A stretch of 64,000 nt of DNA from Pagrus major (lineage: Eukaryota; Chordata; Actinopteri; Spariformes; Sparidae), in NCBI RefSeq assembly GCF_040436345.1, contig NC_133232.1:27124315-27188314 (forward strand), in the 5' to 3' direction. This document shows positions 2,839 through 50,354 of this stretch, one piece after another. Numbering within the stretch: position 1 is the stretch's first letter; each line of letters begins with the position of its first letter. Both the position numbers and the translations under genes were made by a program. The notes beneath the pieces were generated by a model that ran no database searches, was not told the DNA's origin, and saw only the letters and a list, made by a program, of their open reading frames with translations.

Positions 2839-3803
2839 ACTGGGGGATCAGAAATGTCTGAAGAGACACACATTACAGTTATTACTTTCAGCTGTGACTT
2901 TTGCTCGCTTGCTCGATCATCTGGGTCATCTGCATTCACAAATGACATTACAGAAGGGTTTGCAATATCTGCAACAAAGTTTTTCAACACCAAGCTCAGA
3001 AAGAGGACAAAAAGAGAGCGAGAAAAACAGATAAATGGATTCAGTGCATTGAAAACAGGGAACCTCTTTGATCCTATTGAGCCTTCCCCTCCTCTGTGCG
3101 AGCGTCCCTGTTCTGACTTTTTCACTTGGAGCAGAAAGTCTGATGCTCACAGAAATGCTAATTTCACCTTGCAGCCAGAATATGAGAGACATCATTTCCC
3201 AAATGCTATATGGGCACTTTGAAAACACTTCTGAAGTTCATTCTTGGTAAAGACATAGGCTTCAATCTGCAAAATCTGTAGATTTATTATCTTTTTTTGA
3301 ACAATCATAAATTATTTATACAAAGACATTTACAGTTATTGCTTTAAAACACATTTAAGTGAAATAAATAAACAGCCACACATAAACCTGTTAGGAATCT
3401 GTTCATTGTGCATTGGTGAGTGAAGATAAAAACACTCCGTAGAGCATCCTTTCCTATGAATATGGTTTGATTTGGCTCGTTGTGTTTTGTAAAGGAGCCA
3501 ACATGACATTTTATAGTTCATCGCCATTGTTTAAATCCACCTGGGCATACAGTATTTTAGCTGTTTTAAATGGGTCGTGTGATTTGTTAGATGGCTCCAC
3601 TGTGAGAACGTTCAACAGACGTATATTTGGTGACATAAAACACTTCTACACTTTTAAACACCGCCTGGTGTGATGTGGAGATGGAAAATAAATGCAGAGT
3701 TGCAGGTGACGGAGACAATTTTTTAAATATTTTAAATAAAGATCTACACTGCTGTTCTCTCTTATGCAAAACAAAGACTTACTTTTCCTTTTTTTGTTCT
3801 CAG

Positions 3804-6800
3804 GATGAGAAGAACCAAGTGCTGATGACGAACGCCTGGCTGCAGCTGGTGAGTCAGAGTTTGAGAAGGGCACGTTATTATCAACTTAATGTGCTTTAAT
3901 TATATTTTGGATTTTATTACTCAATTATCCTTCATTATGACTGTGTTTCTCAAATTACTAGCGTCACTACATTAAGTGCTTGATGATGACACTGAATCTT
4001 AACTGTGCACATCCAGAGTTACAAGTTATTTCCCAGATTTGCTCATTTAAGCTATCTGCAATTAATTTATTTATTTTTTCTCACAGTTAAGTTCCATATT
4101 AAAACTCTCAAAACTGGACCTCAGCCAGTAGTTGTTGCTGACCGAGTGAGAGACACTGCTTGTGTGCGCTGCTATGTTCGATGCTGGCATCAGCACACTC
4201 AGGAAAACATCACTTCAGGCAGATTGTCAAGCAGAAAGTGCGACAAATGGGAGGAGGAGGAAGAGGGAGGAAGAGTGCAGCGTATTTAAGTGGCAGTCAA
4301 CTTGATTGTTAATGGACTTAATGCCAACAGGAGAAAACAATCCACAGATGGATCCACAGCCTAGAGCCAAATTAGTCTGCGCAACATTTATAGTTACAGG
4401 GCATTATGCCTGTTGCTGGTTTTAAATTAAAACTCTATCTGTGCATTGGATCCACAGCCGCTGTGGCTTTATTATACTGAATGTAACTAGTTGGCTCAAA
4501 ATCATTATAGACTGCTTAAAGCCATCGGGTATGCCTGCACAGTTAGAAATATGTTGACAGTAATAATCTATATCTTTCTTACTGGATAACCTTATTTCTG
4601 TTAGATTTTGAAAACAGCAATAGTGTGAGGATCATTTTATCCCTCCAATTTTTTTAAATTTCTTTCCTGGCAAGATATAGCCCATATCTTTTCCATCAAA
4701 TGTGCCATTTTCTTTTAAAAGTCCAATTAGATTAGTTCAACTAGACATAGCAGAGCATGAGTTATTGAACCCTTTTTAAAAAATGTCAAAAAAAAAAAAG
4801 TCTAGTAAAAAAAACTCTCTTTCTCTGTCTCAGTACTGGACAGACATCTACCTGAGCTGGAATCCAGACAACTACCCTGGTGTCCAGAACCTGCGATTCC
4901 CTTCAGACCAGGTGTGGACCCCTGACATCCTCCTTTACAACAGGTAAGAGCTGCTTTTTCTACTCAATACTTTCTTGAAAGTGGCTGTAACTGATATTTT
5001 ACACTAAGGATAAAGTGAAAATGTTGAGTTACAAGAAACCTATTATGCTTTTTTTCCCTCCTGTCCGTCAGTCTTTTATATAGGTTCTTGTGCATATAAA
5101 AGATATTGAAAGTTAAAAAGGACAACAGAAGCTCCTTTCTCCCACAGAAAACACTGCTCCTGAAACGCCTCGTCAATAGTCCCGCCTTTAATTCCGTGAC
5201 TTTGTGACATCACACTACGTCACCATGTCACACATTTGCATAATGTTTACCTAGCGGCTAGTTTGGCACGTAAGAATTGATTCAGCACAGCTGCTCTGTT
5301 ATTGTTAGCGGTGCTGGGTCAGGCATGTGTGAGCTGACCAATCAGAGGAGACTGGGGGGCCTTAAAGAGACAGGAGCTAATAAAGACTGTGTCTGTTTCA
5401 GACAGAGAGGGAATACAGAGCTGCAGCACTGGACAGTATGAGAAAACTGATGCATTTTTGAGCACTTAAGCATCTAAACCTATTGTAGTGGTAACCCAAA
5501 ATGAAATTATAAACCTGAAAATTAGCACATTATGTCTCCTTTAAAGGAATCACTCACATATTTCCATCAGGACTTGGTAGAGACCAAAAACAGAGCTGTA
5601 TGAGGAGTAAATAATGGACTAACATTCATCAAGTGGCTAAATTGAGACTCCAAATGTTGCTTAAGTTGCTCCGTAACAACTGGATGTATAAATATGCATC
5701 TTTTTGCTAACAATTTTGCAAGATCAACTCAAAATGTGATGATATGTTAATACTGTGCTCACAACTTCTGCTTTGCCCAAGGGATAAGAAAAGTTATAAT
5801 AGGATAATCCTTTATCCATCTCCCAGAGGTCAAATTAAGATGTTACAGCAACACAAAGACAGAAAAAGTGTCCAAAAAAGTTCTATGTATAAGTTTGAGA
5901 AGTTGTTCTATATAAAAGTTGTCCTGTTTTTTTTTGTTGTTGTTGTTTAGTATAATTATTTTTTTTCTTGCTGCCAAAACGGTGTTATAATCCACCATTG
6001 TCACTTTTCTACAGCAGATAAACACAACTGTCAGAGACTGGATGTTTTTTTACAATTTTTTTTTTGGGAAGTGAGTTGGAGTGATTGACATATCAGTCTA
6101 ATCCTCGAGATACACCGCTATTTTATTAAAGTCTCTCTTTAATCTACACAAACCAATACAGTGTGAGAGTTACTGTAAGCCTATGTGATGAACAATCACA
6201 TCCAATCAAACACAAAACGCCAGTGACACCGGTACGGAAAGTAAAAAGTGAGTCATTCAAAAGACGTATACAGTAATTCTGCTTCATTTACTTACTGTAA
6301 TTTCTCCACTGATGGAAAGAAGAGTTGCACTGAACTGACTTTACGCTCCCCAACTGCTTCAATCTAAAATCAGTCAGTCAGTGTTTTTATAATTCATTGT
6401 AGTGGCTGACAAAGGCTGCGGATGTCCTTGGTGAATTGATTTGGACTTGCCTGTTAACAGTAAAGGTGCTAATGTGATAAAATGCTAAATAGCTACAGCA
6501 AAAATGTGTTTTAAATATTATGGAGATAAAAGGGCTGAGGTCAAAGAAATGAATAAAAGATACGGTTGAGCGAGCTCTTTGCATTTTTTTGATTCAGGTC
6601 AGGCTGGTGCTGTTTGCTTATCCACTGTTCTTCACACTTCTCTGCGAGGCTTTCTCGAGTCAGTTAGAAATGTAGGCCAGTTCTTCTTCTCCAAAACAAC
6701 TAATTGCGTTGTGGCTGCATGCCTGAGTGAGGGACGGATGGCCGGGTCTGAGACTGAGGGGAGAGGAAGATGAAGAGATGGATAGAGTCAGTCACAAAGA

Positions 6801-8264
6801 GGAAGAAAATGACACAGATACAATGTGTGAAGGACAGAAGATTTTGGTAGTTGGACAGCTGGTCTTCACTGATGTTCGCTGATGGAGATGTTTCTCCTCG
6901 TGCCCATATTTCTCCCCCGATTCACACACTGAAACAAGCACATGGCACATCGCGGGAACACAGGGACAAAACAAAGGTTTGGGGGTATTAACCCAAATTT
7001 TAAAAGCTCAGCTTTTAGACATGCCTGGATTACCCACCCTAATCTCCCTGCTCTCACCCCGTCTCTGCCATTTACCCTCTGCCTCCACTCCTCCCTCACT
7101 CCCTCCATCATCCACCCCGCCTTACCGTCTCTCTCCTCATCTCATTCTATTTGTGTCTCCCTCCATCTCTGTTTCATAACTCACTGTCTCACTATAATTC
7201 ACTCTATTCAATCAACTCTTTCTCTCCATATTTTATCGTTCCCAGCCTTCACTGACTCCTCTTGATAAATCATCCCATCTACCTGTCTCTGTCTGTCAAG
7301 GTGTCAGCATGTTACTCTCCCCCCTCTTGTCACAGTCTGTTTATGTCTCGCTAGCTGCTCAGCCGACCTTATCTGGTGCTGTATGTTACTCTGCTACCTG
7401 CTCAAATCTGTTCACACATGAAAACGACTCGGTTTTAACAAAAAATAATTTTAGATATTACTGAATTGCTTTTCCAAATATGTATTGGAGCTAAAATAAA
7501 TCCTGTCTGGATTATGTTTACTTGCAGTGTTTTATCTAATCCAGGAAAAATATGCTGCACTGGAGTCAAAGGAGGACAAAACACTGGACCTGAGACACGG
7601 GTTTGTGTCCAGTGTCTCACATGTTGTCATTGGCTTAGAAAGAAAAAAAACATTTTGTGCCAATCTATCGAGCAGATTCTGAGATATTTCACAGGATAAA
7701 GGGCCGTCCACACCAAGAACTATAATAATAATAATGTGAGCATCCACACTGATAAATAATCAAGTTTGGTAAACAGTCACGCATGACTGAACAAACAAAA
7801 CCAACCACAAGGAAATTGAGAGGGGTTAGGAGAATTCAGTACTCTGCTATGAGAGTTGTTGTTTTTTGAAAACCAATTTAATTCATACTTTTGAATGCGA
7901 TCAATTAGCTGACATAAAAGCGATAGGCTACAGTTATAAATATGGAAAAATGTCCCATTTGAAAACAAATCAAATGTAAATGAACATAATTTTTAAAAAA
8001 AACACGTATTCATCGTAAACTGTTGAGAGCAGCCATACATGTCTGATACAGTTGGGGAAATTGAAAACAACATTGCTGATGTTGCTGTTTTTCAGTCTAA
8101 GACTCTTGCTTACCTTGTTGAAGTTGGACACGATGAACGGTAAAGTGAAGCCAAGGGGCAAGATTCAGTTTGCAGCTGAGCCACAGGGTTTACATGTCCC
8201 CTGAGGAGACATTCAAATTTACAGTTTTCAGCAATAATATGGATCACTGCTGGAAACACACACA

Positions 8265-19194: not shown

Positions 19195-20963
19195 TGTTTG
19201 AATAGTGTTCAGTTAATGCTCCCCTCCTCTCTTTACTGTTCCCCCTTGTGGGTGAAAACATCCCTCCTGAACCAGCACTAATCTCTCTCTCTCTATCCCC
19301 CACTGTTTTTTAGTTTGTTTACCCCTATTCTCTGTTTTATCACAATTTTTGCACAGATTTTATTTCTCCTGTTAGAGTGCAAGTGTACATCTTCTCCCCT
19401 TGGCAATTTAACCTCTTGCACAGACTGATCAGACTCGCTTTCCTTTCATGTTAGGGTGTGAAATCAACCCATTTTGGGTATTAATTTAAGCTGAATGTTT
19501 TTCACCTGTAAGTAGATGTTTATTAAATGCGACAATGGGGTAGTTAAAGAGGGGTTCAAAAGGTAAAAACATTCCAACAAGTCATAAAATGCAAAAAACT
19601 AAAAGCATGTTAACATTGTTTGTTGTGTTCTCTGCAGCCCAGTACTTCGCCAGCACCATGATGATTGTGGGAATGTCTGTGGTGGTGACAGTTATAGTCC
19701 TGCAGTTTCACCATCATGACCCTCATGGAGGCAAGATGCCCAAGTGGGTAAGTGACTGATTTAAGTTGATATGTTATGATAACATTTCCTTCCTGATAAC
19801 AATTTTAGTACTTGTACATCAAGTATCAGCACATCAAAGACAACAGCGCTGCCAGCCTGGACCCTCACCAGTATGCATTCGCCATGAGCCAACAGATCTA
19901 CAGATGATGCCATATCCACTGCCCTCCACTCAGTCTTCACACACCTTGAGAATAAGAACAGCGTTACCAGAATGCTGTTTGTTGACTACAGCTCAGCAAC
20001 ACAACACAATCTCACCAATGAAACTGATTGGAAAACTTAACAGTCTGGGCTCGAGTACCACACTCTTCAGACACTTTTTACAGAGCCAAATTCTGGTAAA
20101 CTTTTACAGAAGGGCAATAGAAAGCATCTGGTGAAGTGAGATGTTTGCACAGAGCCCAAAGGAAACTAAAATACAGCACCCATCCCCAGCCACAGTCTGT
20201 TCACCCTGCTGCCATCTGGCAAAAGATATATAAGTATCTGCTGCCATGTGTCGCCATACATAACATTTAGCACAAATGCCTATGTTTGTATGAATGTGTT
20301 TTTGTGTGTGCTGCTCCACTGACACTACTTCTCTCCATTCAGGTTCGTGTGGTTCTGTTGAACTGGTGTGCCTGGTTTCTCCGTATGAAACAACCTGGCG
20401 ATGACCGCAAGCGGCCCGGTTACAAGTACCGTCACACCACCCAGCACCACTCAAGCACCAGCTCCATAGAGATGGGCAACCTGCCAAGCCTCAGTGTTCC
20501 CCTCTCTCAGACTTCCTGTCCACCCTGCCCCACAGGCACCTCCAACGGTTCCATGAGCCTCTACTTCGGCAACTACCACCCCATAGAGAGCTCACACTGT
20601 CCACCTTCTAGCGACTCCGGGGTAGCACTAGGGGGACGTGCCCGCGGCTCCCTCAGTGATGAGGCTGAGCCTCCTGGAGGAGTTGGCAGTGTTGGAGGCC
20701 TGGGGATGGGAGTTGGAGGGGGTATGGGCATCAGCGTCCCCCCACCAGAGATCCAGCGCATCTTGGAGGAGGTGTCATACATAGCCCAGCGGTTCCGGGA
20801 CCAGGACGAGGCTGAGGCCATCTGCAGCGAGTGGAAGTTTGCAGCAGCGGTCGTGGACCGGCTGTGCCTGGTGGCCTTCTCTCTCTTCTCCATCATTTGC
20901 ACCTTCACCATCCTCATGTCAGCACCCAATTTCATAGAGGCTGTTTCAAAGGACTTCACATAG
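3804..20963 (+). CDS. chrna8: Neuronal nicotinic acetylcholine receptor subunit, alpha-7/alpha-8 group (alpha-8-like), 5' partial
   Basis: Subunit of a ligand-gated cation channel at the plasma membrane; alpha-7/alpha-8 subunits can form homopentamers with high calcium permeability (family knowledge). Coding exons read in frame across GT/AG introns: 3804-3848, 4834-4943, 14286-14533, 15923-16117, 16713-16799, 19638-19747 and 20343-20963, giving 471 residues. Visible motifs are loop A (WTPDILLYN), the 13-residue Cys-loop ([15 protein letters not shown]), the agonist-binding vicinal cysteines ([11 protein letters not shown]), M1 (exon at 15923), M2 ([13 protein letters not shown], split across 16117/16713), M3 (exon at 19638), and a long M3-M4 loop then M4 in the last exon, ending [11 protein letters not shown]. 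Alpha-8 rather than alpha-7 is favoured by [30 protein letters not shown] and [15 protein letters not shown], compared from memory. Exons for the signal peptide and mature N-terminus were not found at 1-3803, so the gene starts upstream. An alpha-7 paralogue remains possible. Confidence 0.93.
3849..4833 (+). other. Receptor gene intron between the 45-bp and 110-bp exons
   Basis: The donor is GTGAGT at 3849 and the acceptor a pyrimidine tract plus CAG at 4831-4833. AT-rich sequence with no recognisable repeat or RNA gene. Confidence 0.85.
5034..5544. mobile_element. Non-autonomous DNA-transposon-like element in a receptor intron
   Basis: The left end (AGAAACCTATTATGCTTTTT) and the inverted right end (ATTAGCACATTATGTCTCCTTTAA) share an imperfect terminal inverted repeat of the type ACCTATTATGCT/AGCACATTATGT. 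The internal sequence (GTGACATCACACTACGTCACC, GACAGAGAGGGAATACAGAG) matches my memory of a very common teleost MITE-like repeat. No transposase ORF. Confidence 0.55.
8273..8303. repeat. (CA)n microsatellite
   Basis: About 15 CA units after an interrupted CACATGCGCG lead-in. Confidence 0.95.
10655..10687. repeat. (GT)n microsatellite
   Basis: About 16 GT units, non-coding. Confidence 0.95.
10835..10864. repeat. (GT)n microsatellite
   Basis: About 15 TG units, 150 bp downstream of another GT tract. Confidence 0.95.
11208..11297. repeat. (CA)n microsatellite, long
   Basis: About 45 uninterrupted CA units, the longest dinucleotide tract in the window. Confidence 0.98.
11471..11521. repeat. (CA)n microsatellite
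   Basis: About 25 CA units, separated from the previous CA tract by about 170 bp of non-repetitive sequence. Confidence 0.97.
14534..15922 (+). other. Receptor intron before the M1 exon
   Basis: Donor GTAAGC at 14534 and acceptor TTTCTCAG ending at 15922. Holds the reiterated repeat at 15255-15810; the first half shows nothing assignable. Confidence 0.8.
15255..15810. repeat. Interspersed repeat with internally reiterated motif
   Basis: A motif of the form TTCTCCATACAAATTCAAGCC...GCAGTTAAGC recurs several times in this block (near 15388, 15640 and 15735). Its related sequence AAATTAAAGCCAGCAATTCAGTTTAG also appears at about 56755, so this is a dispersed family with internal repetition. It lies in the receptor intron 14534-15922. 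Class unknown. Confidence 0.55.
16118..16712 (+). other. Receptor intron interrupting the M2 channel helix
   Basis: A phase-1 intron splitting the glycine codon of SLG/ITV in M2, with donor GTGAGG. The acceptor pyrimidine tract is itself a (TC)n microsatellite (16679-16704). Confidence 0.85.
16679..16704 (+). repeat. (TC)n microsatellite forming the acceptor polypyrimidine tract
   Basis: About 13 TC units lie immediately 5' of GTCTCAAG, the acceptor of the 87-bp M2 exon that starts at 16713. The repeat therefore serves as the polypyrimidine tract of that exon. Confidence 0.85.
16895..17035. repeat. Fold-back repeat remnant in receptor intron
   Basis: A perfect 10-bp inverted pair, TTTGGTGTTG (16929-16938) and CAACACCAAA (16945-16954), sits inside a larger imperfect palindrome built from CTTATCTCACCG/ATCTGATATCG and CGGTGATATCAGATAAG. 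This looks like a decayed fold-back transposon remnant; family not identified. Confidence 0.45.
18311..18421. repeat. Direct duplication, left copy flanking the MITE
   Basis: About 110 bp beginning AACACATCCTTTGACACC and ending CTCCTCTTGCATAAAG. It recurs almost identically at 18829-18945 on the other side of the MITE. Confidence 0.8.
18420..18831. mobile_element. Non-autonomous DNA transposon (MITE-like), terminal inverted repeats
   Basis: The left end GGATAAGTTCACCCAAAATG and the inverse complement of the right end (TTAAGGGAACAGTTCATCCG) form an imperfect terminal inverted repeat. This is the 'GTTCACCCAAAATGAAAATTC' type very common in fish. Subterminal GTGGAAAGTCAGGTGAAGTTT and AAACTTCACCTGACTTTC are also inverted copies. 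The 168-residue ORF across it has no recognisable domain and is judged spurious. Confidence 0.65.
18829..18945. repeat. Direct duplication, right copy flanking the MITE
   Basis: Matches 18311-18421 with a few substitutions and small indels (TTTCTTACCTC against TTCTTATTTCTCACCTC). Far too long to be an ordinary target-site duplication. Confidence 0.8.
19143..19192. repeat. (GT)n microsatellite
   Basis: About 25 GT units in the intron before the M3 exon. Confidence 0.97.
19793..20250 (+). mobile_element. Decayed LINE (L2/CR1-like) reverse transcriptase remnant
   Basis: Translations in shifting frames give pieces typical of the jockey/L2-type reverse transcriptase: [10 protein letters not shown] followed by stop-interrupted sequence, [12 protein letters not shown] (from FxDFSSAFNTI-like), [10 protein letters not shown], then [10 protein letters not shown]. 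The 3' end resembles the L2 C-terminus ([20 protein letters not shown], from [17 protein letters not shown]). Several frameshifts, stops and internal deletions show it is dead. It lies in the intron between the M3 and last exons, in gene orientation. Family assignment rests on remembered motifs. Confidence 0.65.
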
Positions 20964-42779: not shown

Positions 42780-42840
42780 CACGTCTTGTGGGCGTAAATA
42801 CGTCAGCGCGCCCTCGTTCTTTCTTTCTCTCGTCCTGAAG
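42780..42840 (+). promoter_or_regulatory. eef1g promoter and TOP-like 5' end
   Basis: A CRE-like TACGTCA occurs at about 42799-42805. A pyrimidine-rich tract TCGTTCTTTCTTTCTCTCG follows just before GTCCTGAAG and the ATG at 42841. Such tracts at the cap site mark 5'-TOP mRNAs of translation factors, controlled through mTOR/LARP1 (established for this class). The exact start site is inferred. Confidence 0.55.
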
Positions 42841-45800
42841 ATGGCGGCAGGGGTGAGTAAGATGGAGAGATGGCTCAAAATGCGTTTTCCTGTACATTCC
42901 CGGCACAATCCGCCGAAAATCAGGCCCATCTGCCCTCGTGCTGACCAGCTTTGCTCGCAAACCCGTCCCTCGACCTGTTCTGTAGCTGCTGCGGGGTTTA
43001 TTTACAAACAGTTTAATTCAGTGTTCATTGTAGCTGATGTTAGCTCTTGCTATCCTGACGTAGCATTCGCTGAATGACGCCCCTCTGCTGGCCCAGGCTT
43101 GTGCCACGTTACCTTTGCTATTTCAAGCTGTGGAAACTTATTGTCTCAATTATGAAAGTTTTCGTTAAGCGGTGGTACCTGTATCCTGTTTACGTAGTGC
43201 TAAGTGTAACCAGTGTTTGGCATAACAGTCTAAAACGATGTCCATGAAGACTATGTGGTTGTAGTGCCGGTAGTGTTAGCTAGCGTTAGCATTTAAAGCA
43301 AGTAAAAAGCCACGTGAATATAACTGAATTTGCCTTTACTTGGCGTACAAAGCACAGCTAGACTTGATTTTTGGCATATGGTTTATCGAACAACCCTCCA
43401 GCTTCGTTGTAGTCTCATTCGTGTACAATCCATGTAAATGGTAGAGCATCCTGAATTGGAAAGCATCATTTTTATGATACTGCAAAACTGAGTTTAACTC
43501 GTGCTAGCTGGATTTGTGGCTTTAATTGCTGAAACTGTCTTTCCCTAGATGGGTTGCTGTATTTATAGGAAGACAACTGTTTTACAGAGTCAGTTGTATG
43601 ATTTTGTTTAACAGTGGTGAGCTATTGCCACAAGCTCATCCCATTTAGATGTTGAGTTTTTGCTCACGTGCTTGCTAAAAATGTCTCACATGTGTTAAAA
43701 TGAGATGTTTCCTGTTTGATGGTTGAATAATTTGGTCTTTTTCGTTTCCCCTCTTTCCAGACTCTGTACACGTATCCAGAGAACTGGCGGGCCTTCAAGG
43801 CCCAGATTGCAGCCCAGTACAGTGGTGCTCGCCTGAAAGTCGCCAGCAACCCCCCTGCCTTCACCTTCGGGCAGACAAACCGTACTCCTGCCTTCCTCAA
43901 CAACTTCCCTCTGGGCAAGGTGAGTGCAAATGGTTCGGACTGTAGGTCTTGTTTCTGTGTCATCAATGTAGGTAATCGGTTACTGCAAGTAAAATGTAGA
44001 GTAGAAGAGCTCTTTGACCACGGCAACATATTTCATCATGCACTGCATAATAAAAGCATGCTAAATGTGATGAAATCTTAAAATCTGCCATCTTCTTCAG
44101 GTACCCGCCTATCAGGGAGATGACGGCCTCTGTCTGTTTGAGAGTAATGCCATTGCTTACTACCGTAAGTTTAATATTTACTAACTAAATGATTACTTAA
44201 GTTTTTATGCACGGTCAATTTGGTTAGTCATTGAAAAGGTCAATATTTATAGTTTTACCTTAAGTCTTAAAGGAAGTAGAGTAAATCTCACTAGGTTTAA
44301 CAGTTTTCCATGAACACTTGTGGTGGTGTCAATCAGGAATCCTTCCCTCCCTCCCTCTGTGGAAAATGAGTGGTCCCCTGTCATTGGGCAAGGCAGTGTC
44401 CAATCATGGCACCAAGTCTTAATCTGACAGGGGAAGAGGAATTTGAGACCATATTCATCCCAGTCGTCTCTGTTTTAGTGAGTAAAAGGCTGGTTCATGC
44501 TGTGGGCACAGTATTAAAAAAATGCTGACTTTACTGTACTGATGTTAATAAGAACTACAGTACAGCTGTTAGTTTGGGATTTTTTTCTTGTCACTGGTAA
44601 ATCATTATCAAATTGGTACACTTGCAGGTCACTATCTAATGTCTGTCTTTGTCAATTTTCAAAGCAGAAATTTTGATTCTTCACAGTGGAGAGGGGCTAT
44701 AAGGCTATATTTCATTTGGGTGTGCTGGTTGGCCAAACGTGAGCATGTGCAGCACATGGGTCCCTGCACACCTAAATGGTATGCGCATTATTGGTTCTAC
44801 CTGATTGACAAGTTAAATGTTTGAAGTGTCTGTTGCACTGAAGGCAGTATTGCATCAGACAGTTACAAGTCTGCACTTGTAACTGTCAGCATGCTTTTTG
44901 AAAAGGGCGTACAGTAATACTGAAATACAGTTGTTAATGCCACAAAAAAACTACTTTATTGGCTATACAATATTGTCAAATCATATTGTGAGGCGTATTG
45001 GTGATATAATTTTTTAGCATTTATGACTGGAGATCTTATTGATTGCTTAAAAGAAATACTTTCCATCTTTCCACTACAGTGAGCAATGATGCCCTGCGTG
45101 GAGCCACTCCCCAGGCTGCAGCCCAGGTGCTGCAGTGGGTGAGCTTCGCTGACTCAGAGATCATCCCTCCTGCCAGCGCATGGGTCTTCCCCACTCTGGG
45201 AATCATGCAGTTCAACAAGCAGGTTTGCATCTCGGCATTTTCCCGTCAAGCTAAAGACTTAAAAGTATTATTTGGTAGCTGTGGTGGAAGGTTGCTGCCA
45301 GTTTCAGTTAGCCAGAGTGCAGCACCCTGTACATGAGACCTGGCACTTGACCATGCATTGAAGTATATATTGTGTAATACTGCATAGTCATTCTTCTGTT
45401 TGTGTCTGTCCAGGCCACAGAGCAGGCCAAGGAGGACGTGAAGAGGGCCCTTACAGTACTAAACCAACACCTGACCACCCGTACCTTCCTGGTGGGGGAG
45501 AGGCTCAGCCTTGCTGACATCAGCGTAGCCTGCTCCATGATCTGGCTCTACAAACAGGTTCGATCGACTGTCTCACACAGCTTAAATAAATCATACATGC
45601 ATAAAGCTCTGTTTTTCTTGGAACAACACTTGATCTCTGTCATGATATTTGAGTCAAGTTGCTCTCCACAAAGCCCTTAACAACTTTCTGTCCTCTGTAG
45701 GTCCTTGAGCCTTCTTTCCGTCAGCCTTACCCCAACGTGACTCGCTGGTTTGTTACCTGTGTCAACCAGCCCCAGTTCAAGACTGTCCTTGGGGAGGTTA

Positions 45801-48800
45801 AGCTGTGTGAAAAGATGGCCCAGTTTGATGGTGAGTCCCCAGCAAAGAGACCAGAAGACATGCATACTGAGCGCACCGCTGGTTGCTGGAGGATATCATT
45901 TTTAAGGATGAAATTAGACACTTCTTTATTATTTTGAATTTGTTCTTTTTAAGTGTCTAAAACAACATGCAATTGAATAGCTATGCTAAGTTATTGCCAA
46001 TTCCCCATTGGCATTGGGCCTGTACAACAATCATGAAACGCCCCTGTTTGGGAAGACACAGGCAGTCCCCTGTCTTTGGGCAAGGCAGTGTCCAATTATG
46101 GCACTAAGTCTTAATCTGACAGGGGAAGAGAAACTTGAGACCATATTCATCCCAGTCATCTCTGTTTTAGTGAGTAAAAGGCTGGTTCATGCTGTGGGCA
46201 CATTAAAATTCAAACTATTTATTATGGGTACGAATGTCAAATTTCTTGCAATATTTCACAATTGTCTCCAAAATCCTTGCCAGAGATTGGTTCCAGAGTG
46301 GAAAACCAAAGTTGGATCATTGAACATTTAACAGAAAACATGTTTTTGTTTTGTTCTGTTCCTCCAGCCAAGAAGTTTGCCGAGATGCAGCCCAAGAAAG
46401 AGGCCCCTCCTAAGAAGGAGAAGGGAGGAAAGGAGGCAGCCAAGCCCCAGGAGAAGAAAGAAAAGAAGAAGGAAGAGAAGAAGCCCGCCCCAGAAGAAGA
46501 GATGGACGACTGTGATGCTGCTTTGGCTGCTGAGCCCAAAGCCAAGGACCCCTTTGCACATCTGCCAAAGAGGTAGAAAGATGGTGTACTTTTTTTTTTT
46601 TTCCACAAATTTTAGCTGACAATTTTTAGGTTTTTAAATCCACATTGACCAAGGATGGCCATTAAGTAGTTGCAAGTTTTTATTGGAGCCAATTACTTCA
46701 GCTGATTATTTCCCTGAGTACATGCCCTCTACTTGAAAGGGGTGCTAATTAGTGGGTGGAGACGATTGAATTTCCATGGAGCACTTGAAGAATTCAATGG
46801 TGTATTGACCATTTAATCACTCACAGTAAAGGCTGTGTCGTCTGCAGACCATGGGCACGCTAAGCCCCTAACAAAACAAAATATTTGTTTAAATGGAAAT
46901 GGTGGTGCGTTGAACACCCTGTTGTCCATTATGTGCACCTCCCTTATAATACAGTGAGGTTTATATATGTAATATCTGTGGTGTTAACACCTGACACACC
47001 CACCTAATGAGCCCGTTCCACATCCTTGTGAGGAGACGTAGAGACACAGTGCATGTAGTCCTCAGATTGAACATGTATCGTGCATTTGGCATTGGGCCTT
47101 TACAAAATCATGAAGCTCCCCTGTTTGGGAAGACACAGGCAGTCCCCTGTCTTTGGGCAAGGCAGTGTCCAATTATGGCACTAAGTCTTAATCTGACGGG
47201 GGAAGAAAAACTTGAGACCATATTCATCCCAGTCATCTCTGTTTTAGTGAGTACAAGGCTGGTTCATGCTGTGGGCACATTGAAAATAACTATGAAACTA
47301 AATATTATGGGTATGAAAACCCATCTCTGTAAGCTGGGCTAGGTTCTGTATGTTTTCTGTAGCATGTAGAGTGTTTTTTTTTTACTTTGTCACTCCTATA
47401 ATGTGGGCTTTAAGGTGGCAGACTGCAATTGTTCACGGTCACTTGCCTATTTTTCCATACCTCGTCTTTGTCTGTACTGACAGATCTATATGACTTAATA
47501 TTTCTCCCTTTTTCTCTTTAGTACATTTGTCATGGACGAGTTCAAGAGAAAGTATTCCAACGAGGACACCTTGACAGTAGCCATTCCCCACTTCTGGGAG
47601 CACTTTGACCGTGAGGGGTACTCAATCTGGTACTGCCAGTACAAATACCCAGAGGAGCTCGAACAGACCTTCAAGAGCTGCAACCTGATCACAGGTGAGA
47701 CTCAGCAACTGCCACTTTACCCAGCACCTTGATCTGTGAAAGAATAACTTGAGGGGTTGTAACGTATATTTAAATAAATCGTGTAGGCACATGTCATTTT
47801 TTTGTCAGTCCTACCAATTTGTTATCTACAACAATATGGGGACTCTGTGGTTGGAAAGAAAGTGATTGTGATTCTGGCCTTGGTCCTTCACGTATGGCAA
47901 TTTTCTGGTTAATTTGATGGCACAAGTTTTGTACAGGTTGGTTCACATGGTCTGACGATGCTAGTTTGTCCCTATATTTGAAAGCTGTGATCACAAGAGT
48001 TTGTAGGCCTTTAGGAAAAACAATCACGTGGCCTTGAAAGTAGATTAGAGGAGCCAAGTGATTGAGTACACTGAAAAGCCCTTCTATTTTTTTTTAATAG
48101 TCGTGTACATCATGTACCTCCATTTTAAATAATGCATTATGTGTTAGACTTGGTAGACCTCTCCCATAGGTCTAGTGTGTGATTGTTTCGTGTCAAACTT
48201 TTCTCTTTTAATCAGCTGAAGTGGCTCTGGCCCATATTTCAGTGTAGAGCAGTCGAAAAAGATCACTACAGGATTGTAGCCCTGATTTTCTTCTCACCAA
48301 AAGTTTTTGAATAGCAGGAAAAAAAAGCCCCCAGATCAGAGACAAAGCGGTGTCATCGGCACTCAATTCACTAAGTGTGAACTGTTCAAAGACGTGATCT
48401 AAGAGCTCAGCGACGTATCGCAGACGTCTGAAAGATATCAAGCAGACTAAATATCTGGATGCATGAGGGAGAGCTGTTCAACGAGCAGCCACTTCTCTGC
48501 TGCCATGTGCAGTAGTTTTCTGAACCCATTCTTTATGCATCTATTTGTGTGGAGGGGGCAGTATACTGTAGTTTCTATCAGAATATATTGCCATACGCAC
48601 AAGCTTTTCAGTATTCTTAACCATGTCCTCCTTGCTGAACCACAATAACGAGCGGACAGCTATGTTTCATTGCTAATAAATTTACTTCAAACTCTTGCTG
48701 CAGAACAATGGTTACTGATGAGGCATATCCCTATCCTTTCACTCACTCACTTTTCTTTGTGTGCCGATTTGCAGCGAAATAAGCAAAAAACTTTGAATAC

Positions 48801-50354
48801 CCATTTCTCTTATCTCATCACATGAGTTTTTGTGACTAAACATAGTTCGGAGGCCTGACGGACTCGCCTGGAATTCCTCCTGGTGAAAGACCTTGTAATT
48901 TGACCCCCTGACGCTATTTAGTGTGCAATCATAATGACTCATAATGACTGAACCAATTTACAAGACAGAAGCTTTTGTGAACTATACAGCAATCTAGCGA
49001 CTTTTGAAAGTCACGTTGTGTGACTAGCGTGCAAGTGAATATGATTTGGTTCCCCTCAAGCCAGTGCTTGTCTGAGGTGTTTATTTTAAACACCTCAGCA
49101 GCTGCTTCTCCAAAGTTGTTAAGCAGAAACTAGACAGTACTTAAATTGGTAATCACCCCTCTTTAGAGAAAACAGAAGTCCCCTGTCTTTGGGCAAGGCA
49201 GTGTCCAATTATGGCACCAAGTCTTAATCTGACAGGGGAAGAGAAACTTGAGACCATATTCATCCCAGTCATCTCGGTGTCAGTGAGAAAAAGGCTGGTT
49301 CATGCTGTGGGCACATAAAAAAAAAGAAAAAAAAAATCGAATCATGAAGTTTTTTGGTTTTTTTTTAAACAATAGTGATAAACGTATGACAGCACTGGTT
49401 AGTGTGTCTGAAACAATTGATGTTACATTCTGTTGGGACTTCTTGTTTCTATTGATTGATAAAATGATGTCTGCTCTTCACAGGTATGTTCCAGCGCCTG
49501 GACAAACTCAGAAAGAATGCCTTTGCCAGTGTCCTCTTGTTTGGCGGCAACAACGACGGCAGCATCTCTGGCATCTGGGTCTTCAGAGGACAGGATCTGG
49601 CCTTCACTGTAAGTATTCAAGGGGTTAACACATTTTCCTTAAATGTTCAGAATTGACAACACCCCCACACTCAAGCATTTACTGCCTATTTTTTGACAAA
49701 GTGGTCAGGGCAGTCATTCATGTCTTTATGAAACAAAGGGAACCAAAGTTTTAGTTTTCATCTCGATTTAGTGGACAGTCCCCTGTCATTTGGCAAGGCA
49801 GTGTCCAATCATGGCACAAAGTCTTAATCTCACAGGGGTAGAGAAACCTGAGACCATATTCATCCCAGTCATCTCGGTGTCAGTGAGGAAAAGGCTGGTT
49901 CATGCTGTGGGCACAAACGATATGCAAGGTCTAGAATTTAAGAATTGGATGTTGTAGGTTGATGGGTGTCAGTGCTGCTGTACTTGGATGGTGTTTGAGT
50001 AAATGTTTCTTAAAACATTCGTCATACACAGCACAACTTTAATTGTCTGCATTTCAGTGCACACTGTGATGGTCCAAGTATTCTCTATAGGATAATCTTT
50101 CATCTGATAATCAGTTGCGGTAGTTATCAGTTCATCAAACCTTGAAGGTAAATCACTCGCATCTAAATAACGTATTGTGTTTACTCCGGTCCTAGCTGTG
50201 TCCCGACTGGCAGATCGACTACGAATCATACGACTGGCGCAAACTGGATCCAGACAGCGAGGAGTGCAAGACCATGGTAAAGGAGTACTTCGCCTGGGAA
50301 GGAGAATTCAAGCATGTGGGTAAAGCTGTGAACCAGGGCAAGGTCTTCAAGTGA
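42841..50354 (+). CDS. eef1g: Translation elongation factor 1 subunit gamma
   Basis: eEF1-gamma scaffolds the eEF1B guanine-exchange complex that recharges eEF1A during elongation (family knowledge). Ten coding exons join in frame: 42841-42852 (MAAG), 43761-43919, 44101-44164, 45080-45222, 45414-45557, 45701-45830, 46368-46572, 47522-47694, 49484-49608 and 50196-50354 (TGA), giving 437 residues, equal to the vertebrate length. Order of parts: GST-like N-domain ([14 protein letters not shown]), GST C-domain ([26 protein letters not shown]), a Lys/Glu-rich linker in exon 7 (residues about 218-286), then the conserved EF1G C-terminal domain ([30 protein letters not shown], ending GKVFK). Five introns carry H/ACA snoRNA-like copies. 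Candidate AATAAA signals lie at 50535-50540 and 50725-50730. Confidence 0.98.
42853..43760 (+). other. eef1g intron 1
   Basis: Separates the 12-nt coding part of exon 1 from exon 2, with donor GTGAGT and acceptor TTTCCAG. No snoRNA copy or repeat recognised. Confidence 0.85.
44373..44513 (+). ncRNA. Box H/ACA snoRNA-like copy 1 (eef1g intron 3)
   Basis: First hairpin closed by CCCCTGTCA (44375-44383) pairing with TGACAGGGG (44425-44433), then H box AGAGGA (44435-44440). The second hairpin has an upper stem CCAGTC/GGCTGG and a lower CCATA/TGTGG stem, and the terminal ACA is at 44508-44510, three nucleotides from the inferred end. Unlike the other copies it has GGAATTTGAG after the H box. The specific snoRNA family was not recognised; the class call is from architecture. 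Confidence 0.75.
46065..46205 (+). ncRNA. Box H/ACA snoRNA-like copy 2 (eef1g intron 6)
   Basis: Stem CCCCTGTC/GACAGGGG, H box AGAGAA, second hairpin as in copy 1 and ACA at 46200-46202. Ends about 160 nt before the next exon. Preceded by a 55-60-bp segment shared with copy 3. Confidence 0.78.
47142..47282 (+). ncRNA. Box H/ACA snoRNA-like copy 3 (eef1g intron 7)
   Basis: Nearly identical to copy 2. The stem right arm is GACGGGGG (one A-to-G change that keeps a G-T pair), the H box AGAAAA, and ACA is at 47277-47279. Confidence 0.77.
47695..49483 (+). other. eef1g intron 8 outside the snoRNA copy
   Basis: The longest eef1g intron after intron 1. Apart from snoRNA copy 4 it holds a minus-strand open frame at 48208-48441 (see findings). 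The rest is unremarkable. Confidence 0.6.
49178..49318 (+). ncRNA. Box H/ACA snoRNA-like copy 4 (eef1g intron 8)
   Basis: Stem CCCCTGTC/GACAGGGG, H box AGAGAA, ACA at 49313-49315, about 165 nt upstream of the next exon. Second-hairpin loop reads CTCGGTGTCAGTGAG, shared with copy 5 but not copies 1-3. Confidence 0.78.
49778..49918 (+). ncRNA. Box H/ACA snoRNA-like copy 5 (eef1g intron 9)
   Basis: Stem CCCCTGT/ACAGGGG with a G-to-C change removing one pair, H box AGAGAA, ACA at 49913-49915. Loop as in copy 4, so these two are sister copies. Confidence 0.75.

Follow-up and report, generated by a model that had tools for sequence, protein, structure and literature searches.

Why do five introns of a single fish gene carry segments that closely resemble one another, and what might these segments encode? 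The question is raised by eef1g, the elongation factor 1-gamma gene of Pagrus major, which lies within a window of 64,000 nucleotides (the whole stretch of DNA that was analyzed; assembly GCF_040436345.1, contig NC_133232.1, positions 27,124,315 to 27,188,314 of the forward strand). A preliminary description, made from the letters of the window, had taken the segments for five copies of a box H/ACA small nucleolar RNA (snoRNA) of a family that it did not recognize. Our analysis indicates that each copy very probably encodes, from within its intron, an H/ACA snoRNA of the SNORA48 kind, the 3' pocket of which would guide pseudouridylation of the 28S ribosomal RNA (rRNA). The earlier reading is thus supported, by the boxes, the 14-nt spacing and the match between guide and 28S, and the putative family can now be named. 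The host gene and the copies are the following (bit scores refer to the Rfam model of SNORA48):

42841..50354, + strand: host gene eef1g (elongation factor 1-gamma), from the exon model, Pfam and the matches to 5dqs/1pbu
44373..44513, + strand: SNORA48-like H/ACA snoRNA copy 1, intron 3 (31.5 bits, structure)
46065..46205, + strand: SNORA48-like H/ACA snoRNA copy 2, intron 6 (36.1 bits, structure)
47142..47282, + strand: SNORA48-like H/ACA snoRNA copy 3, intron 7 (33.1 bits, structure)
49178..49318, + strand: SNORA48-like H/ACA snoRNA copy 4, intron 8 (29.7 bits, structure)
49778..49918, + strand: SNORA48-like H/ACA snoRNA copy 5, intron 9 (12.2 bits; two terminal pairs of the 5' lower stem lost)

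The five similar segments of around 140 nt that had been reported for introns 3, 6, 7, 8 and 9 were recovered as copies of 141 nt that align without gaps. Pairwise identity ranged from 124 to 137 of the 141 positions across the ten pairs, and 20 of the 141 columns were variable. A model built from the five found no sixth copy within the window at expect values (E) up to 10.

H/ACA box snoRNAs are stable RNAs bound to dyskerin, NOP10, NHP2 and GAR1. They have two hairpins with an H box (ANANNA) between them and an ACA three nt from the 3' end, and the target uridine is selected 14-16 nt upstream of the H or ACA box. In the structure that was fitted to the set, the lower stem of the 5' hairpin has 9 bp and its upper stem is split, and the 3' hairpin has a 5-bp lower stem and a 6-bp upper stem. 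The H box (columns 63-68) and the terminal ACA (columns 136-138) are present in all five copies, given the 3' end as predicted, and the two variable columns of the H box (66 and 67) are N positions of the ANANNA motif. Pocket and box lie 14 nt apart in each of the hairpins (column 49 to 63 in the 5' hairpin, column 122 to 136 in the 3' hairpin), within the range that the rule prescribes. All 34 pairs are formed in copies 1-4, and in copy 5 the terminal pair at each end of the 5' lower stem is missing. When the 3' part was folded alone, the expected stems appeared in all five copies, and the pocket arms were closed by 3 bp.

The arms of the 3' pocket occupy the same columns in every copy (82-87 and 122-128), and are given here for copy 4:

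49259..49264, + strand: left arm of the 3' guide pocket, UUCAUC
49299..49305, + strand: right arm of the 3' guide pocket, UUCAUGC

In all five copies these arms form 7+6 Watson-Crick pairs, without any G-U, with the 28S sequence GCAUGAA-U-G-GAUGAA. The predicted target is most likely the 28S uridine that corresponds to human position 3797 and yeast LSU2314 (LSU: large subunit), two positions which we take to be equivalent. The Rfam consensus of SNORA48 has the same two 3' guide arms at the same 14-nt spacing, which agrees with a 3' pocket that would select the 28S-3797 uridine. To locate 28S sequences we used a 28S pattern, which retrieved seven contigs in bacterial assemblies. Rfam assigned LSU rRNA to two of the five that were submitted (L002 and L003), and the other pattern contigs hold a short stretch only. 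All seven carry GGATTAACG, which is one base off the guide. The genome of P. major itself yielded one target match, with GGATGAACG, in which the G completes the 13 pairs. This match lies in an LSU fragment of 126 bases (L019 7573-7698, on C4) that shows changes just upstream, around helix 69, and has the target intact. A further exact match was not found in the assembly, and therefore the ribosomal DNA (rDNA) arrays seem to be absent from it. The target scored 13.0, against 8.8 for the next best among the 2974 uridines of the 9.9 kb around the L019 fragment, a region that is mostly non-rRNA, and one out of 500 shuffled guides reached 13.0 on L019. On L002, the 28S piece of another eukaryote that has T instead of G, the match is reduced to 7+3 and the site still ranks first among 827 uridines. 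If the helix-69 uridine of L002 is, as we presume, yeast 2266, the target uridine lies 48 nt after it, in agreement with the equivalence of 2314 and 3797. In the literature, SNORA48 is tabled for 28S-3797 and yeast snR86 is described as required for LSU2314. A scan of 28S with both pockets, as the preliminary description had proposed, gave a match for the 3' pocket, but nothing convincing for the 5' pocket in the partial 28S sequences L002 and L019, where the best candidates lean on G-U pairs or odd junctions.

A side observation concerns four of the 28S-bearing contigs. L001, L005 and L007, whose records name a bacterial endosymbiont of Escarpia laminata, a tubeworm, and L006, from a planctomycete metagenome-assembled genome, end in a short eukaryotic 28S sequence, which presumably starts near the R2 retrotransposon site. 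They may be R2-type elements that reached these assemblies as contamination from a host.

The family assignment was obtained below the thresholds of Rfam. At gathering thresholds no family was found in the window; for SNORA48 (RF00554) the gathering score is 50 bits, a curation threshold rather than a biological feature. Below it, SNORA48 ranked first for all five copies and over the full model (1-135 of 135). Copies 2, 3, 1 and 4, in this order of score, had E values from 0.00017 to 0.0064 in 8.2 kb, and copy 5, likewise at first rank and full length, had an E of 2.7 in its own 181 bases. The covariance models that had been suggested as a check therefore name SNORA48, but no copy attains 50 bits.

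Several points weigh against the assignment and have to be set beside it. All five scores are under the gathering score, that of copy 5 far under. Among the 41 of 58,928 candidates that were scored genome-wide for the family, the five matches were four of the copies and a stretch of 81 bases on C19, the latter with 36.1 bits, the same as copy 2, and copy 5 was not among them. Weak matches to SNORA48 also occurred in six of 14 prokaryote controls, none of them above the cut-off. Unconstrained folding of the whole RNA preferred other folds for copy 5 and, in part, for copy 1, so the layout of two hairpins, H box and ACA claimed at the outset is one that all five copies can form, though not always the one that free folding selects. 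Not one of the 34 pairs was changed on both sides among the five copies, and the structural conservation thus rests on a lack of change. As to the target, the 28S piece from the fish's own genome is a 126-base fragment rather than an rDNA unit, and 50 of 300 shuffled guides did as well on L002 when G-U pairs were counted. The human 28S target of SNORA48 is itself called predicted, without experimental proof, in PMC8240307. Given the C19 score and the control matches, the family score alone proves little, and the match between guide and target is the stronger evidence for the putative SNORA48 identity. The C19 stretch (L015), which was considered as a further SNORA48, lacks the guide arms by eye and was not matched by R1; we took it as a chance match.

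The distribution of the changes bears on which part of the RNA would be functional. None of the 20 variable columns falls within the 3' core of 40 columns (lower stem, pocket, upper stem, linker and ACA), for which the hypergeometric p is 0.0007 (0.0019 when the three tail columns are left out), the regions having been grouped after the alignment was seen. In the 5' hairpin both pocket and stem contain changes. It is the invariant 3' core that would act on 28S. Three changes affect paired columns: one, in copy 3, keeps the pairing (U-A to U-G), and two, in copy 5, break it. The earlier statement that differences tend to keep pairing is thus true in a weak sense, holding for one change and failing for two. 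We hold it possible, if somewhat doubtful, that the copies are of the SNORA48 type and yet not all five make RNA, with copy 5 above all perhaps decaying. Its two broken 5' lower-stem pairs, its family score, the weakest of the five, and its different unconstrained fold point that way, as does the remark in PMC10234308 that snoRNAs of one host are often unequal in abundance; against it, copy 5 retains the entire 3' core, the H box and the ACA. Far less probable is that the segments resemble an H/ACA RNA and no more, being instead a structured RNA without guide function or a conserved element within the introns that serves splicing. The modest fold z-scores (-1.1 to -1.8) and the scores below the Rfam cut-off would suit such an element, but it would account neither for the boxes and the 14-nt spacing in both hairpins nor for a match of 13 pairs to exactly that site which belongs to the best-scoring family.

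The genome-wide distribution was examined in the 785.9 Mb (25 contigs) of the fish's own assembly. A DNA search with copy 4 gave five matches, all in eef1g, in a search that scored the best candidates only and in which repeat counts are lower bounds. An exact pattern of the pocket arms plus part of the upper stem occurred five times on the forward strand, and neither on the reverse strand nor in the reversed control. A less strict pattern, which asked for the arms and the ACA spacing, had 42 sites (16 in the control); the 6-bp upper stem is formed in the five copies only, and the best of the other 37 sites forms 3 bp of it. No second guide of exactly the same form was seen in the genome by these searches, which are blind to guides with changed arms, and the eef1g copies look like this genome's sole source of the predicted guide. 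That the segments are an ordinary interspersed repeat (a short interspersed element, SINE, or a snoRNA retroposon) that landed in one gene is scarcely credible and was rejected on the genome count and the missing target-site repeats: an A-rich tail does follow copy 4 and snoRNA retroposons are known in mammals (PMC2832892), but all five matches lie in eef1g, so that they are not a SINE of the genome-wide kind that the preliminary description had set up as its refutation, no exact direct repeat of 7-14 nt occurs between the 30 nt before and the 60 nt after any of the five copies, and copies 2 and 3 have flanks in common on both sides.

These flanks, together with the variable columns, indicate how the SNORA48-like copies may have multiplied. 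The upstream parts are:

46009..46064, + strand: upstream flank of copy 2, common to copy 3 (flank comparison)
47086..47141, + strand: upstream flank of copy 3, common to copy 2 (flank comparison)

We compared 150 nt on each side of every copy against 200 shuffles. Copies 2 and 3 have around 57 nt upstream and 23 nt downstream in common; these two putative snoRNA genes derive from the duplication of a unit larger than the snoRNA. For the remaining nine of the ten pairs the flank similarity was never above the best of the 200 shuffles on either side. The flanks had been called dissimilar except upstream of copies 2 and 3; this stands for the nine pairs, but the downstream 23 nt have to be added to the exception. 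Likewise, the suggested intragenic copying is borne out, flanks included, for copies 2 and 3, but finds no such flank similarity in the other pairs. Copies 1 and 5 go together at columns 11 and 33 and copies 4 and 5 at columns 99, 102, 104 and 140, and the two conflicting groupings fall in different halves of the element. This is as expected from exchange between copies, which may have taken place, although a few parallel changes would also suffice.

The host gene is intact, with 10 coding exons, nine GT..AG introns and an open frame of 437 aa, and its product contains the EF1G, GST_N and GST_C domains. The copy-bearing introns measure 537 to 1789 nt and the copy-free introns 2, 4 and 5 143 to 191 nt; intron 1 is 908 nt long and yet free of a copy. 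The gene had been called one of the terminal oligopyrimidine (TOP) type, which fits the following feature, TOP-like by sequence and compatible with a TOP promoter:

42817..42831, + strand: TOP-like unbroken pyrimidine run 5' of the ATG (read directly from the sequence)

In mammals SNORA48 has another host, namely EIF4A1, in intron 4 in rat (PMC8240307) and in SENP3-EIF4A1 in human. The corresponding fish loci were located with an eIF4A fragment, which gave 16 matches (88% on C10, 83% on C21 and 64% for the third). Matches of the whole eIF4A protein to the C10 locus (L028) covered residues 24 to 406, so its first exon and intron may be partly outside. L028 contains SNORD10, and the C21 locus (L029) contains two SNORA81 and two SNORD2 at 6339-8210, all above the Rfam cut-offs. 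We take SNORD10 to be an EIF4A1 snoRNA and SNORA81 and SNORD2 to be EIF4A2 snoRNAs, and call the loci eif4a1-like and eif4a2-like on the basis of this content, not of a tree. SNORA48 was found in neither locus, by R1 or by Rfam at E up to 0.1. A pocket search that allowed one mismatch per arm found nothing in L028, and in L029 two sites with two mismatches each, on the strand opposite to the gene. The EIF4A1 intron, a mammalian and non-defining feature of SNORA48, is thus not the location here, and considering the SNORA48-like copies in eef1g and the lack of any detected in the eif4a loci, the host gene of the predicted SNORA48 differs between mammals and this fish. That snoRNAs reside in different host genes in different vertebrates has been published before (PMC3349704).

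With the SNORA81 and SNORD2 pairs of L029, this genome has a second locus at which intronic snoRNAs are doubled. These pairs resemble the eef1g set in having more than one copy each per host locus (two), and differ in family and in scoring above the gathering scores.

Taken together, the eef1g set very probably consists of divergent SNORA48 genes in another host and in five copies, with a standard mechanism. SNORA48 (ACA48) itself agrees in H/ACA layout, in the full-length model match, in the 3' guide arms and in the 28S-3797 target; it differs in that the mammalian gene lies in an EIF4A1 intron, whereas the fish copies lie in eef1g, five-fold and below the gathering score. Fugu U17 is alike as an H/ACA snoRNA in the longer introns of a fish translation gene; Cecconi reportedly described it in 1996 in the ribosomal protein S7 introns, with several copies in one gene. 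It belongs to another family and has no role as a pseudouridylation guide. Yeast snR86 guides LSU2314, the equivalent of human 3797, but is about 1000 nt long, with the 3' hairpin alone conserved among yeasts. Several copies in one host are also the subject of a general remark in PMC2832892. The interest of the set lies in the different host and in the five-fold cluster that stands alone in its genome.

In the proposed mechanism the eef1g pre-mRNA would be spliced and the introns trimmed to RNAs of ~141 nt that bind the H/ACA proteins. Pocket arms UUCAUC and UUCAUGC would then pair with GCAUGAA-U-G-GAUGAA of 28S, and dyskerin would turn the target uridine (human 28S-3797, yeast LSU2314) into pseudouridine. 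The copies would stem from duplication inside eef1g, possibly with exchange of sequence among them, in a presumed order and with a presumed effect on dosage. We lean towards the view that the guide's whole supply lies outside eif4a1 and was amplified five-fold in eef1g, its guide half being kept identical by selection or gene conversion, which would couple a 28S pseudouridine shared by yeast and mammals to the output of one elongation-factor gene. A conserved rRNA guide would thus reside in different host genes of different vertebrates and have been multiplied inside one of them. Since SNORA48 is the most abundant snoRNA in rat heart, according to PMC8240307, the five fish copies offer a natural test of guide dosage. 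That they were missed at the Rfam thresholds is in line with PMC3349704, which argues, mainly for C/D snoRNAs, that too few snoRNAs are annotated outside mammals and that these RNAs vary in host gene and in copy number. Within the open-licence literature we found no publication that names SNORA48 together with EEF1G, and for EEF1G with 'snoRNA host' the excerpts obtained bring up eef1g in connection with the choice of start site and not with a snoRNA.

Elsewhere in the window, an open stretch at 20271-20960 contains a neurotransmitter-gated ion channel transmembrane region.

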